NCBI GenBank assembly: GCA_031274765.1
Contig: JAISPR010000153.1
Span: 1 to 64,000 of the forward strand
DNA from: Nitrososphaerota archaeon
GTDB lineage: Archaea > Thermoproteota > Bathyarchaeia > Bathyarchaeales > Bathycorpusculaceae
Direction of reading: 5' to 3'
Length of the DNA: 64,000 bases
Under the pieces are notes generated by a model. That model searched no databases. It had not been told where the DNA came from and was given only the letters and a program-made list of their open reading frames with translations. Each line of letters begins with the position of its first letter. The first letter of the stretch is position 1. The translations under genes were made by a program, and so were the position numbers. Below, one piece after another: positions 4,121 through 53,514 of this stretch.

Positions 4121-4467
4121 ATTGTTATCCCTACTTTAGTAGAATAGTCTATTTCAGAAATATGCAGAAAGTAAACGAAAATATAAACGTTAAGGCTTCG
4201 CAGTGAGTCTTGCAGGTTTGATTAGGGTGTAGACTAAAATTTTTTGTTAAAATTGGGGTAAATTATTTGTTGGCCGCGAGCGGTGAGCGTGATTTTAGGG
4301 TGCATAGTTTTTTTCAAGTTATCATGAAAAGTTCTATTGCTATAACAGGAGGGTAGTGCAACAGCATTAACGGGTAATGTGGTGAGTGTATTGGAATGTG
4401 AGTGGTTTAGTCCATTGATAGTGCTCGGAATTTGGAGGTTATTTGGGTTATTTAGGTCTGTGTGGGA

Positions 4468-4570
4468 GACTGTCTGAAAACTAGAATTTTTTGTATTTTT
4501 GGTGTAAACGGACGGAGAAAAACAGTTCTTTTTTTGTTTTTCTGGGATTTTTGTTAGTTTTCGGACAGTC
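4468..4570 (+). repeat. 103-bp dispersed repeat family 1, copy A
   Basis: GACTGTCTGAAAACTAG...TTAGTTTTCGGACAGTC; ends are inverted repeats; internal AGAAAAACA/TGTTTTTCT stem. Confidence 0.9.
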
Positions 4571-5191
4571 GGGGGGTTTGTGTGGTTATATTTGTGGTTA
4601 ATGTTAGGGGTTGTTTTTGTGGGGGATTTCTGTGTGGTTAAGTGTTTTGATAGAGAATTTAATTATATGGGTATATATTTTCATATTTTTGTTTATCAGT
4701 AAACAAAACTGTGAGGTTGTATTAGTATTTGTGGAATTTGTCGGTAATGATGAAGTAAATAATATTTTGGAGTGGTTGGGGGAGTTGGGGGTGTTGAAAA
4801 TGTTTGAACTCTAGTCGGAGATGGGTATGGAAATGATGGTGTATGGTTTAATTTTTGAACTCGGGTGTATGAACGTTTGTCATTTTTTGAGGTTATTTGT
4901 CGGGTATGTAAAAGTTGTAGGAGGTGGTTGTGTCTGGGCTGACTATAATTATTTGGTGTTATTAGTTCAGACTGCGATTATTCAACATAGCTGACAGCAT
5001 ACGCGTTTCATGATAAAAATATATGTGTATTAGGTGATTGTTTTTTGGTTAATAAATATATTTTTACAAATAAATCATTAATATAGATTGTAAAAAATTA
5101 ATTTTAATAATTTATTTGAGTTATATTTAACCAGTAAAGCTTTAATTTAAAGTTAACCTATGAATATCGGCACGAATTAGGTGAAAGGGGA

Positions 5192-8749: not shown

Positions 8750-8859
8750 GGTTTTCATTTTTTCCAAGTATACAGTTTGAACTACCAAAACACAAGACAT
8801 CCAGATTTTTCAAATCATATAAAACGCCTAAACTAGAAAAAGCATTCAAACTAAAAACT
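8750..8859 (+). repeat. Dispersed repeat family 4, copy 1
   Basis: Shares TTTTCATTTTTT..., GTTTGAACTAYCAAAA, TTTTTCAAATCATAYAAAAYGCCTAAAC and ATTCAAACTAAAAA with 15661-15775. Confidence 0.75.
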
Positions 8860-8957
8860 CACAACAATCAACCCACCAAAAACACCCCACCACACCACAT
8901 TAAACCCAACAAACCAAACACCCACCAAACCACCCAAAAAATAGCAAAACCCCAACA

Positions 8958-9060
8958 GACTATCCAAAAACTAACACAAATCCCAGAAAAACAAAAAAAG
9001 AACCACTTTTCTCCGCCCATTTACACCAAAAACACAAAAAATTCTAGTTTTCAGACAGTC
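8958..9060 (-). repeat. 103-bp dispersed repeat family 1, copy B
   Basis: Reverse complement GACTGTCTGAAAACTAGAATTTTTTGTGTTTTTGGTGTAAATGGGCGGAG...GTTAGTTTTTGGATAGTC; exactly 103 bp. Confidence 0.9.
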
Positions 9061-9134
9061 TCACCCAGTTACACCAAAAACACAAAAACTATTTTTTAAA
9101 CAACCACCCAACCTCAAACATCAACATAACAAAC

Positions 9135-9791
9135 TCAACACACATTCTTTAACCGTTCACAAAGCAACCTCTCAGCCAACAACAACTCTGGCACCGTATT
9201 AATATTAACTGCTAATTCGTCGTAATCTAAAACGTATATATCTTGATCAAGCCATTCATCACCATAACGTTTCCCACCATCAATCACATTTATCCCAACC
9301 GGCACTAACTCCTGCCCCGCCTCCACAAAAGAATAATCAACACCCATCCCCAACCGAACCTTAATCGCCAACGGAACCGCAACAGTCAACGCAGGCTTAC
9401 CACAACACACATAACGCTCCACAACATCATCAAACATCGCCGATGTTACCAACGGCAAATCAGCAGCAACCGCCAAAAAAACACCCAACCGCAACAGCTG
9501 TACAACATAACCCATATCAGACACATAATCTTTACCAGGCGTCTCAACAACCTCCACATCATACTGCCCCATCAACGCCATGGTTTTAGGCGTAACAACA
9601 GACGTAGCAACAATAACACGATCAATTTGTTTTGCATCACTAAGCGCAGAAAGCACATAATCAATAACAGGTTTACCACAAACATCAATAAGCGGCTTCT
9701 CCACAGGCAACCCTAACCGCGTACCTCGCCCCCCCGCCATAACCAACGCAGTTACACCCATGACCCCACCCCCAACAATACAACCACACAA
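9135..9791 (-). CDS. cobY: CobY-type adenosylcobinamide-phosphate guanylyltransferase, copy 1
   Basis: VTALVMAGGRGTRLGLPVEKPLIDVCGKPVIDYVL nucleotidyltransferase motif; adjacent to cobS. Likely start near 9761. Confidence 0.85.
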   Translation of the reverse strand: MCGCIVGGGVMGVTALVMAGGRGTRLGLPVEKPLIDVCGKPVIDYVLSALSDAKQIDRVIVATSVVTPKTMALMGQYDVEVVETPGKDYVSDMGYVVQLLRLGVFLAVAADLPLVTSAMFDDVVERYVCCGKPALTVAVPLAIKVRLGMGVDYSFVEAGQELVPVGINVIDGGKRYGDEWLDQDIYVLDYDELAVNINTVPELLLAERLLCERLKNVC

Positions 9792-10543
9792 ACCATCCGC
9801 ACTAACTCGTTTGTAGCACCAAATACATCACCAGTAACACCATTAAAATTTCGATGAGCCACCCCAACCATAACTAACCCTGTAACCAAAGCAGCCACCA
9901 CAACAAAAAAACCAATCCAACCAAGCAAAAACAAGCCAACCGTAAACGAGATCACCAACGCGACAACCAAACGCCAATTACCACCCACCCCATGCATAGC
10001 TTCTATAAACGACGAATTCATACCCTGATGCACCGATTTACCAGCCCAAGCACCCACAACCATCGAAAGCTTTGCACATAATTCAACAACAATTAAACCC
10101 GGAACAATTAGCGGCACATAAAAACCAAAAACAGATACATCCTGCCCTAACTCTGCAAAAGCAAAAGCCGTAACAATATAGGTCATCAAAGCTAACCCGA
10201 TAGCTCCAGCACCCGTAAATTGATCATGCATAACAGCTATTTTTTTTTCTGCATCCCCATGAACCATAATCCCGTCACCAAAATCTATTAACCCATCAGT
10301 ATGGTGAAGCCCCGTCAACCATAACAACAACGCCAAAGTCAATGCACCAACAATAAGACTGGGTAAAAATTGCAGGGTAACCCAGCCAAAACAACCTGCT
10401 AAAAGACCCAACAAAACACCAATTAGAGGAAAAGCCCACATATTTTTAGCACAATCAGTAAACAGGTTCGCATCCATTTTAACTGGGAAAACTGTTAAGA
10501 AAGACAAGAGATTCTTGAACTGTTTAACTACCAAGGGATTCAC
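9752..10543 (-). CDS. cobS: Adenosylcobinamide-GDP ribazoletransferase, copy 1
   Basis: 263 aa membrane protein; LTGLHHTDGLIDFGDGIM and GVTGDVFGATNELVR. Confidence 0.93.
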   Translation of the reverse strand: MNPLVVKQFKNLLSFLTVFPVKMDANLFTDCAKNMWAFPLIGVLLGLLAGCFGWVTLQFLPSLIVGALTLALLLWLTGLHHTDGLIDFGDGIMVHGDAEKKIAVMHDQFTGAGAIGLALMTYIVTAFAFAELGQDVSVFGFYVPLIVPGLIVVELCAKLSMVVGAWAGKSVHQGMNSSFIEAMHGVGGNWRLVVALVISFTVGLFLLGWIGFFVVVAALVTGLVMVGVAHRNFNGVTGDVFGATNELVRMVCVVVLLGVGSWV

Positions 10544-15490: not shown

Positions 15491-15553
15491 ATGGACAAAC
15501 AAAATAACGCCCAACACCAAACTGCTCAAAGACTAGCACCCCTTGAAGGACAA

Positions 15554-15616
15554 GAACGGTCCCGTTTCTTCGTCTTTTTACACCAAACCATAAAAGTCTA
15601 GTTTTCAGACAGTCTC
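15554..15616 (-). repeat. Dispersed repeat family 1, truncated copy C
   Basis: TTTTTACACCAAACCATAAAAGTCTAGTTTTCAGACAGTC matches one end of the family; other end not detectable. Confidence 0.7.
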
Positions 15617-21540: not shown

Positions 21541-21667
21541 GTTCTTCACCAAAACAGGTGGGTAAAATTAGCAAGTTTTGTACGGTGTGATGGTTATATT
21601 GGATATATGGAGACATAAACGAGTTTAGAGAAAGAATAATAAGCGCACCCGCCTAAAATAGCGAAAA
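21541..21667 (+). repeat. Dispersed repeat family 2, copy 1 (AGGTGGGT...ACCCGCCT)
   Basis: CAGGTGGGT to GCACCCGCCT spans 100 bp, same spacing as 44048-44147; shared AATAAGCGCACCC(G/A)CCTAAAATAGCGAAAA. Confidence 0.8.
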
Positions 21668-34880: not shown

Positions 34881-35936
34881 TTAGAAGAGTGCATATGGAA
34901 ACCGCTGGTTATTTTGCCATAGTTTACCCTTTATAGGAATAGAATACCCACAGACAGAACAACACATGGCTTGGGTGAGATTCCATTGGGTAACTTCGAA
35001 ACCATAGCGTTTGATAACGGGCGTGTCGCAATTGGGACATATGGTGTTCTCTGCGGGATGATCGGTTATGTTACCAATGTAGACAAAATTGAGATCTTGG
35101 TTTTTAGCGGTAAGGTAGGCATGCTCCATTTCTTGAACACTGGTAGCAGGTGTGTTAATCATTTTATATTCGGGGTAGAACCGTAGCATATGAAGAGGCG
35201 TGTTGGGTCCTAGATAATCTTTTATCCATTTAGCTAAAGTTTGGATGCGTTCAGAAGAATCACCAGTTTTAGGAATGACAAGGTTGGTGAGTTCGATGTG
35301 GATATTGTGCAGTTTAAATTCTTTTAATGTTTCATAGATGGGGTTGACATTTGGAACATCCATAAACGTACGGTAGAAATCGGGATCGGCACTGCCCTTA
35401 AAATCGACGGTAACTGCGTCAAGGTAGGGTGCGATTATTTGGACGGCTTCGGGAGTCATATATCCATTGGTTACAAAGGTGTTAAATAGTCCGGCCTGTT
35501 TTGCTAATTTGGCAGTATCGTAGACGTATTCCATAAAAATGGTGGGTTCAGTATAGGTGTAGCTTAAGCCTTGGCAACCAGCGTTTTGGGCGGCTTTAAT
35601 TGCTTCTTTTGGAGAAAAAAGGCTACTTGGAGCTTTGGGTTCTTGGCTTATGGTCCAGTTGTCGCAGAATTGGCAGTGGAAGTTACAACCAGCGATTGCG
35701 ATTGATAAAACCAAGGCACCGGGATTGAAGTGGTATAGGGGTTTTTTGCTGATAGGATCGATGCCTACAGAAACGGTTTTACTGTAGTTTAAGCTGTAGA
35801 GGGTGCCATTTTTGTTTTCGCGAACAGAACAAAATCCAGATGTTCCAGCATTAATGAGACATCGGCGTGCGCAAAGATTGCATTTGACTTTACCGTCGTC
35901 TTGGCGGGTATAGAGCATGGCTTCATGTAGAGACAT
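34881..35936 (-). CDS. amrS: AmmeMemoRadiSam-system radical SAM protein AmrS
   Basis: CNLCARRCLINAGTSGFCSVREN, KPLYHFNPG, GCNFHCQFCDNW. Confidence 0.94.
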   Translation of the reverse strand: MSLHEAMLYTRQDDGKVKCNLCARRCLINAGTSGFCSVRENKNGTLYSLNYSKTVSVGIDPISKKPLYHFNPGALVLSIAIAGCNFHCQFCDNWTISQEPKAPSSLFSPKEAIKAAQNAGCQGLSYTYTEPTIFMEYVYDTAKLAKQAGLFNTFVTNGYMTPEAVQIIAPYLDAVTVDFKGSADPDFYRTFMDVPNVNPIYETLKEFKLHNIHIELTNLVIPKTGDSSERIQTLAKWIKDYLGPNTPLHMLRFYPEYKMINTPATSVQEMEHAYLTAKNQDLNFVYIGNITDHPAENTICPNCDTPVIKRYGFEVTQWNLTQAMCCSVCGYSIPIKGKLWQNNQRFPYALF

Positions 35937-36228
35937 AACATTCCCAGAAAAAAAGAGAAAAGGTGTTTAAATATATCTCTATAACAACTGCCATAGTTCA
36001 GGTACCCATTTGAATAATTTGCGGTGTAATTTACAAACAATATTAAAAAATAATCTTCAGTCTTTGAGTAATAGATATGTGTTTAGCAGCAGGAAACGGG
36101 CGTGCATTTCTGTAAACGTTAAAGAATTGGGGGGACTAAAAATCCGCTAGTTAGGGTCAGAAGACGTTCTGTAACTATGTTTGTTAGCGGGGTTGTGGTG
36201 TTTCGGGTAGAGGGTGTGGTTTGTTTTG

Positions 36229-36561
36229 GATTTTTTGATGTTGTTTGATAAGGATTTGACTGAACGTGATATTCGATTGGTTAAGGTTAAGCAGAAGGTA
36301 TCGGGGGAGACTGTCTAAAAACTAGAAATTTTCGTGTTTTTGGCGGAAACAAACAGAGAAAAACAGTTCTTTTCTTATTTCTCAAGGATTTTTGCTATTT
36401 TTCGGACAGTCTGGGGGGTTCGTTTTGTTGGAGGTGTGTGGAATTTTGGTCGGATTGCTTCATTGTTGGGACGGCTATTGTGCAGGGCTTTGCTTATGTA
36501 CTATTTTGGGGATTTTGCTGGGTCGGTAACATCTTTGTTTAGTGGTTCTCCACACGACTAA
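36229..36561 (+). pseudogene. Remnant of IS66-family-like transposase C-terminus, interrupted by repeat family 1 copy D
   Basis: Left part DFLMLFDKDLTERDIRLVKVKQKVSG resembles IS66 PFDNNLAERDxRMVKVKQKxSG; right part FVGGVWNFGRIASLLGRL...LFSG resembles the downstream tail. Confidence 0.7.
36309..36411 (+). repeat. 103-bp dispersed repeat family 1, copy D
   Basis: GACTGTCTAAAAACTAG...CTATTTTTCGGACAGTC, exactly 103 bp. Confidence 0.9.
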
Positions 36562-36616
36562 ATAGTTACAAAAACTTAGCAACTTCGACAGTTTTCCAAA
36601 GTGCATAAGTTGTTAC

Positions 36617-36934
36617 TTAGAGTAGCTTATTGTAGAAACAGCTGTATTCGCCTGTATGACATGCAGGACCAATCTGTTCAACTATGTATAACAATGAATC
36701 AAAATCGCAATCAGTACTCACAGAAATTATTTTTTGTGTGTTACCACTGGTTTCACCTTTTACCCAGATTTCATTTCGACTACGGCTCCAGTAGGTAGCT
36801 TTTTTGGTTTTAAGAGTCAACTCTACCGCTTCTCTGTTGGCATAAGCCTGCATCAGAACCACTTTGGTTTTGGCGTCTTGGGTTATAACAGGAATTAGCC
36901 CCCCACTCTTATTGAAGTCCAACTTGGAGAACAA
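36617..36934 (-). CDS. hisI: Phosphoribosyl-AMP cyclohydrolase
   Basis: [40 protein letters not shown]...DCDFDSLLY. Confidence 0.96.
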
Positions 36935-43067: not shown

Positions 43068-44033
43068 AAATTTTCACCTAAATATTTAGAGTTATACCTA
43101 AGGGGTTTTTGTTTTGCGAGAACGTCTTGTTTTGGGACTGCAATTATTTTACAATAACAAATCGTTAAGTTTTCAATGAAGGCAATCGCCTTGTATGAAT
43201 ACAATCCCTCATCATACGTCACTAAGTGGCACCTCAACAACTGACCCACTAATAAAGTATTTCATTAATATTTAACTGTTGAAACAACGCAGAATTGTTA
43301 TGTGGTGTTTTTTATCTTGAAACATTAAAATAGAGAGCTTTCTTGTGTTAGAAACACTCACGTTAACCCGCAGATAAATACACTATTTCAGTTACACATA
43401 TTTCAATATATTAGAATGAATCAAGGATTATGTGTTGAGATTCATTGGACATTTATAGGTTTGTTGCAATTGCTCAACTAATTGTTCATAGTCTAATTTT
43501 ACATTTTGAACATAACCAATATAAAAACTCAACAAATATCAAATATCTAAAAACTGACCATTATATTGATTGGAATAGGGAAAAAAGTACTTAAAAATCC
43601 ATAAAAAGCCCCAATAACCCCAACGTCATCAGGCTTCGCTAACTGAAAAAAAGGCCACAACTTCACCCCACAAAACATAGTTATTCGTCAAATCAGGTGA
43701 GCACGCACCAAAGTTTCCCAACAACACAACATATGGGACAAAAAGAAAACAAACAAATTCCAAGAAACCATCCAAAAATTCTCCAACCCCGGGCAAATAG
43801 CAAACATAACCAAACAAACCAAAAAATAACCACCCCAAACGTCCCAAAGGAACAAAATTCACCTGCCAAAATACAACAAAGAATGCTTTAATTTATGACC
43901 ACCGATGGAAAACCTTTTGCCACCTCAACTGACGACAATACAAAACAAACAAACCATAAAAACCCCACAAATAAAATGCTGCACAAAAATCCCATAGCCC
44001 AAAAATAACCCGACTCAACAAAGACAAAAAAGG

Positions 44034-44160
44034 GTTCTTTGTCAAATCAGGTGGGTAGAGCCAATAAGTTTCGTTGCAGCATATAGTTGTATGAGCCATA
44101 ATGGAAACATAACCAGTTTAAAGAAGAAACAATAAGCGCACCCACCTAAAATAGCGAAAA
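44034..44160 (+). repeat. Dispersed repeat family 2, copy 2 (AGGTGGGT...ACCCACCT)
   Basis: AGGTGGGT and ACCCACCT are perfect inverted repeats with the same 100-bp spacing as the 21.5 kb copy. Confidence 0.8.
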
Positions 44161-53035: not shown

Positions 53036-53151
53036 AGACTACGCAAAAACTCCGATAAAATTCATCAAAACCACTACATACAGCAATAGGAAAGGGTTGT
53101 ACGCTATCTACAGTGCTTAGTATGTTGTTTTTTGACTTTTGTACAGTCTGA
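53036..53151 (+). repeat. Dispersed repeat family 3, copy 2
   Basis: AGACTACGCAAAAACTCCGATAAAATTCAT...GTTTTTTGACTTTTG; matches 29311-29418. Confidence 0.7.
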
Positions 53152-53180
53152 AATGTGATCGACTCTCTAAACACCCCCCA

Positions 53181-53283
53181 GACTGCCCGAAAACTAACAC
53201 AAATCCCAGAAAAACAAAAAAAGAACTGCTTTTCTCCGTCCGTTTACACCAAAAACACAAAAAATTCTAGTTTTCAGACAGTC
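53181..53283 (-). repeat. 103-bp dispersed repeat family 1, copy E
   Basis: Reverse complement GACTGTCTGAAAACTAGAATTTTTTGTG...GTTAGTTTTCGGGCAGTC; exactly 103 bp, differs from copy A at only a few positions by eye. Confidence 0.92.
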
Positions 53284-53514
53284 TCCCCGCGAAGCTATCC
53301 CCTACCCAACAAGCAGTAACTGGTCTGTTCTTCGAATTTCGGTTCAGAAACCAACTAAACAAAAAGAAAAATCCGGGCCTTTTAAAATTCCATAAAAAGG
53401 ACACAAACTCAGTTATATAAATTCGTTAACCATAAAAAAGAATGTTGATGAATATTATTCTTTGTTCCAAAGCGCTTCAAATAAATAGAAATAAAAATAT
53501 GTTGATAAATACGG

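Follow-up and report, generated by a model that had tools for sequence, protein, structure and literature searches.

Among the closest described systems are the MITEs derived from ISMac2, of the IS1182 family, in Methanosarcina acetivorans, which are 160 bp long, occur in 14 copies and have inverted repeats (IR) of 26 and direct repeats (DR) of 4 (PMC3852290 Table 4). For some members of the IS1182 family the targeting of palindromes has been reported, and IS1272, which belongs to this family, replaces a target stem-loop without producing a duplication (PMC5678879). The locus considered here lies in a stretch of 64,000 nucleotides, referred to as the window, from an archaeal genome of 2.5 Mb in 170 contigs. 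It is very probable that a 107 bp MITE has inserted at a G-rich 4 bp target in the relic of an IS66 element, a DDE transposase of IS1182 type having probably acted on it in trans. The features of the locus, in window positions, are as follows.

34881-35936, minus strand: amrS-like gene, the start of which faces the insertion
36132-36306 (left limit approximate), plus strand: left part of the IS66 relic, C-terminal coding, ...FDKDLTERDIRLVKVKQKVSG, recognised from relics C17, C48, C102 and C73
36303-36306, plus strand: left target duplication GGGG (family consensus GKGG), recognised from the family-wide duplication
36307-36413, plus strand: MITE copy of 107 bp, GAGACTGTCTAAAAACTAGA...GCTATTTTTCGGACAGTCTG, multicopy genome-wide, with inverted-repeat ends and a 4 bp duplication
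36414-36417, plus strand: right target duplication GGGG, recognised from the family-wide duplication
36418-36569, plus strand: right part of the IS66 relic with the right end of the IS, ...TAGTTAC, recognised from identity to C73, the shared boundary and the translation
36617-36934, minus strand: hisI, the end of which faces the insertion

The nested insertion is thus flanked by the amrS-like gene, at its start, and by hisI, at its end, gene names that we presume from inspecting the proteins ourselves. The neighbouring AmrS-like radical SAM protein is 84% identical to that of Candidatus Bathycorpusculum termitum, the remaining matches being at 56-66%, and by this closest protein match the host is assigned to the Bathycorpusculum lineage (Bathyarchaeia of the arthropod gut, here the termite gut).

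The repeat is a MITE: it is short, free of a transposase and multicopy, it has inverted ends and a duplication, and filled and empty sites can be contrasted at paralogous and orthologous loci. The initial annotation had recognised a repeat of 103 bp at 36308-36412, which was correct as to place and incorrect as to size and limits, the element being 107 bp long and extending from 36307 to 36413. At full length it reads GAGACTGTCTRAAAACTAGA...TTAGTTTTCGGACAGTCTG, with most copies measuring 105 bp between the anchors used, and its MITE-type ends, GAGACTGTCYRAAAAC...CAGTCTG, form terminal inverted repeats of about 19 bp (GAGACTGTCTRAAAACTAG / CTAGTTTTCGGACAGTCTG) that are common to the aligned copies. 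There were at least 43 BLAST matches to the repeat in the genome (40 of 196 candidates being scored), and the inverted-repeat end AGACTGTCTGAAAA, with at most one mismatch, occurred 136 times as against 0 for the reversed control. From the stretches around the end matches 94 copies were read and 88 could be aligned with both ends; the family statistics rest on these 88 near-complete copies from the one genome, a figure that is a lower bound. Median identity of the copies to their consensus is 90% and pairwise identities range from 66 to 97%. Other copies in the window, each identified by its sequence match to the family of 36307-36413, are listed below.

4466-4572, plus strand: MITE copy
8956-9062, minus strand: MITE copy
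15518-15616, minus strand: degenerate MITE copy
53179-53285, minus strand: further MITE copy

MITE copies are also nested in one another, C81:6373 lying within C81:6432 and C164:8967 in the G run that follows C164:8856. Another family of short repeats, GGTTATTCGTCAAATCAGGTGGGTG...AAAATAGCGAAAAGCC, is present in the window at 21541-21667 and 44034-44160, and elsewhere has inserted inside MITE copies (L065, C70:11558-11803, and C17:64591). At L021 (C127:13898-14138) a MITE has an IS66 relic as its neighbour on one side only, an arrangement for which recombination or insertion followed by deletion are both possible. Beyond this genome, DNA-level matches to the MITE were found, one in each, in 3 of 31 other genomes of the genus, and the end motif GAGACTGTCYRAAAA is present in seven, bounding short or contig-end elements with different interiors in G001, G002, G004, G014, G025 and G031; the genus-mate elements so bounded lie mostly at G-rich sites. 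When the interior of the multicopy elements with these ends was sought in G014, contig ends alone were recovered. The match to the end motif in G006 (L179, G006:C94:10141, GAGACTGTCCAAAAA) lies within a CRISPR-like array, whose repeat is GTCCAAAAAGGAAATCCAACACAACAAGGATTGAAAC, and is unrelated to the MITE.

Taken singly, the duplication at 36303-36306 and 36414-36417 is uninformative, G runs being present on both flanks. Over the family, flank-linked variation is strongest for the pairs -4/+3, with z 7.8, and -2/+5, with z 6.8, which corresponds to a single 4 bp register, and under this 4 bp model the flanking tetramers are identical in 51 of the 88 copies, compared with a mean of 29.7 after shuffling (maximum 41). 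Among copies without GGGG on either side 11 of 29 have identical tetramers as against 3.0 when shuffled (maximum 9 in 5000 shuffles), and such informative pairs include GTGG/GTGG (five times), AGGG/AGGG (twice) and ATGT/ATGT. A duplication of 5 bp was considered and 4 bp preferred, since -1 is unlinked to +6 while -5, -4 and -2 are linked to +2, +3 and +5. The mobility that had been proposed for the family is thus borne out by inverted repeats and a 4 bp target duplication across 88 copies. The target consensus is GKGG(G) and has a fixed orientation with respect to the element: at least three G are found in the left five bases of 82 of 88 copies and at least three C in 0 of 88, and the flanks are G+T-rich on the same strand (median 0.76). 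Palindromic targeting by the MITE was rejected, flank complementarity being 131 vs 134.7 expected, and target replacement of the IS1272 kind is ruled out by the presence of a direct duplication. That the MITE enters GKGG(G) strictly one way round, and on G+T-rich strands, is somewhat unusual, and it is mainly in this strict orientation and G-rich target that the interest of the family lies.

Strand-asymmetric patches of 120-500 bp were observed in the window at 8761-9200, 9661-10160, 36141-36540 and 43641-44060, and such patches (G+T above 0.72 or below 0.28) are about three times commoner outside genes. Relative to C73, the IS66 relic C102 shows C>T at 18 positions and A>G at 6, compared with no T>C and a single G>A, and on the plus strand in minus-strand genes of the window, compared with Ca. 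B. termitum, G>A exceeds C>T; no strand bias of substitutions was seen in the MITE copies.

The DNA on both sides of the repeat had been described as an IS66-like remnant, and similarity to IS66 is indeed found on either side. In the left half of the window reading, 26 aa align at 73% identity with a 481-aa IS66 transposase of a genus-mate (E 9.7e-15). This transposase is encoded by an uninterrupted ORF (L250, G014) matching PF03050 with E 1.1e-36. The right half aligns with an uninterrupted 74-codon reading of relic C73 (E 5.6e-15). Both of the readings originally noticed, DFLMLFDKDLTERDIRLVKVKQKVSG (codons from 36229) to the left and VRFVGGVWNFGRIASLLGRL...SLFSGSPHD to the right, are present. 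On the window fragment itself PF03050 is weak (E 0.21), and the joined window reading gave E 0.21 in one Pfam search and no match in another, so that the IS66 identity of the interrupted gene rests on its relatives, by comparison with which it can be regarded as secure. Five relics elsewhere in the genome (C73, C102, C162, C48 and C17) align with that in the window, the right part of which has 88-89% DNA identity to the MITE-free C73:77-233; those that reach far enough share a right boundary, ...GAATAGTTAC, equivalent to window position 36569 and reading ...GA(A)TAGTTAC over the five aligned, beyond which the paralogs diverge. The interrupted gene is an incomplete relic of an IS66 element. What remains in the window is the C-terminal approximately 430 bp with the right end, rather than a complete IS66 element with both ends and an 8 bp duplication; the left end of the IS is missing and no IS66 accessory genes were seen in the window remnant.

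A C73 DNA query splits at the MITE, positions 8-71 aligning with 36243-36305 and 77-232 with 36419-36568 (query ends 71/232). Relatives read TCGGGTGGTTTTCG (KVSGGFRS) unbroken at the junction, and relics or genes uninterrupted at the same KVSG-(G/C)FR position occur at at least 10 other loci. Removal of 111 bp, made up of the 107 bp MITE and one tetramer, leaves TATCGGGGGTTCG and gives one open reading, DFLMLFDKDLTERDIRLVKVKQKVSGVRFVGGVWNFGRIASLLGRLLCRALLMYYFGDFAGSVTSLFSGSPHD (also DFLMLFDKDLTERDIRLVKVKQKVSGVRFVGGVWNFGRIASLLGRL...SGSPHD), the expected MITE-free reading of the relic at hisI-amrS being ...GTATCGGGGGTTCG.... As 111 bp amounts to 37 codons and is divisible by three, both sides lie in one frame, which excision restores. 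The continuous frame and the split query agree with the initial annotation in making the two halves consecutive parts of an IS66 C-terminus that are rejoined when the repeat is removed. Its view that they lie in different frames was mistaken: 36229 and 36334 share phase, the left frame just stops within the repeat, and removal of the 111 bp yields a single reading. Compared with the corresponding sites in the paralogs, TGTCGGGTGGTTTTCG, the empty site so reconstructed, TATCGGGGGTTCG, lacks 3 bp, and it must therefore be assumed that the relic had lost one codon beforehand or lost it upon insertion, by a small in-frame deletion.

That the repeat had inserted into the IS66 gene is supported by paralogous relics that are empty at the site, and no uninterrupted homologue bears the 107 bp as coding sequence. 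The search for an empty site extended to the orthologous hisI-amrS gap of Ca. B. termitum, which is about 335 bp long vs about 640 bp here and matches neither the relic nor the MITE. Since this gap is without either layer, relic and MITE were both added in the lineage of the window or else lost from Ca. B. termitum.

Contig C57 carries a decayed transposase gene that is preceded on its 5' side, at a distance of about 210 bp, by a MITE right end, AGACTGTCCGAAAACTAGCAAAAA. The gene contains DGSKFKANNSKDNNFT, can be aligned with the transposase of an IS1182-type element in a genus-mate and is truncated by the end of the contig. C50 and C22 have the same right end as C57 and are nearly identical to it over the next 100 bp or so, and C59 shares the 5' region of C57 and codes for the start of DUF772 (PF05598, E 8e-6). 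In complete elements of genus-mates that encode a PF05598 transposase the ends are (C/G)AGACTGTGTNAAAA, and the MITE ends, AGACTGTCYRAAAAC, resemble those of IS1182 elements of the same genus, AGACTGTGTNAAAAC. Among the genus-mate IS1182 elements 4 bp duplications are seen at L154 (AAAC), L165 (TTTT) and L167 (CAAT), and L148, L154 and L165 are complete IS1182-type elements in perfect or near-perfect palindromes (the flanks of L148 being GCGCGCTGGCTTGTC/GACAAGCCAGCGCGC). On this comparative evidence an IS1182-family (DUF772) enzyme probably supplied the transposition activity for the MITE family. No autonomous partner was found that is complete and has MITE-type ends on both sides, C57 being a single decayed locus at a contig end, and no match to PF13751 exceeded the cut-off in the genome; because no complete MITE-ended partner was recovered, the IS1182 step is likely and unproven. 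As side observations, in L154 and L165 the loop of the palindrome is the 4 bp duplication, and another IS1182-like repeat, with ends CAGACTGCGCAAAAA, is found at C91, C95, L153, L159 and L161, and a stretch resembling it at about 53040-53151 adjoins the window MITE at 53179-53285.

It might be argued that the partner was some other DDE transposase with similar ends and that in C57 a MITE end simply landed beside a dying IS1182 gene. This would suit the fact that C57 is one decayed, truncated locus, and that the MITEs enter GKGG without palindromes (131 vs 134.7) whereas the genus-mate elements L148, L154 and L165 enter palindromes. However, the near-identity of C50 and C22 to the C57 right-end segment for about 100 bp indicates a longer repeated element and disfavours a chance MITE end, C59 has the same 5' region, and the TIR core AGACTGT, the A run after it and the 4 bp duplication match both the IS1182 relatives and the ISMac2-derived MITEs (PMC3852290), so that another enzyme is rather unlikely. 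If an IS1182-type enzyme is accepted, it is possible, though somewhat doubtful, that the system switched from palindromic stem-loop targets to GKGG with fixed MITE orientation, in which case MITE copies would accumulate where the genome is strand-asymmetric and G+T-rich.

That the IS66 halves came to adjoin the MITE because copies of it in different relics had recombined is suggested by C127:14034-14138, which has an IS66 relic to the right, apparently unrelated DNA to the left and non-matching flanks (GGGGA / ATATG), as would follow from exchange. At 36303-36417, in contrast, the flanks are adjacent parts of one relic type with 3-5 bp missing and in the same frame, and recombination is most improbable here. 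The notion that the repeat is an immobile, conserved structural or regulatory DNA or RNA element draws on the folding of its single strand with paired ends (z -2.7) and on the location of the window copies outside recognised genes, but it has very little probability given the target duplications, the insertions into a transposase relic and into the family's own copies (C81, C164), the free decay of copies at 66-97% pairwise identity, the lack of any Rfam family matching the 107 bp repeat and the restriction of matches to 3 of 31 other genomes of the genus.

For insertion of a MITE, the boundaries and ends of the element, the family-wide duplication, the IS66 homology, the restored frame, the empty paralogs and the ortholog without either layer can all be read in the DNA itself. 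The steps by which it came about would be that an IS1182-family transposase, acting in trans, recognised the AGACTGTCYRAAAACTAG ends, that the MITE was cut out or copied, and that it was joined to 4 bp staggered cuts at GKGG on the G+T-rich strand; the IS66 gene may have been decaying before the insertion or have decayed later. As no complete partner was found, the window copy is probably now immobile, unless a partner at another place in the genome mobilises it. The family is a new one of a known kind, and the nesting of MITEs in IS relics is already well known. It allows about 100 mostly intergenic spots in the genome to be reannotated as copies of a mobile MITE whose ends, target and duplication are defined, it provides an ordered nested insertion at this locus, it extends IS1182-like MITEs to the Bathyarchaeia, and related systems seeking palindromes and G runs form a pair in which target choice can be studied.

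The window relic has the C-terminal motif (A/T)ERDIR-VKVKQKVSG-FR of the IS66 family (PF03050). Elements of this family have GTAA at their ends, and the right end of the relic, ...GTTAC (reverse complement GTAAC), is alike; unlike intact IS66 the relic is decayed and keeps only the last 430 bp or so. With the IS1182 genus-mates the MITE shares the TIR core (C/G)AGACTGTGTNAAAA and a 4 bp duplication, as in L154, L165 and L167, but it has no transposase and does not target palindromes, and its duplication sets it apart from IS1272. Like the ISMac2 MITEs it is short, geneless and multicopy, with terminal inverted repeats, an archaeal host and a 4 bp duplication, and it differs from them in its length of 107 bp, its copy number of at least 88, its inverted repeats of about 19 bp, its different host group and its fixed-orientation GKGG target.
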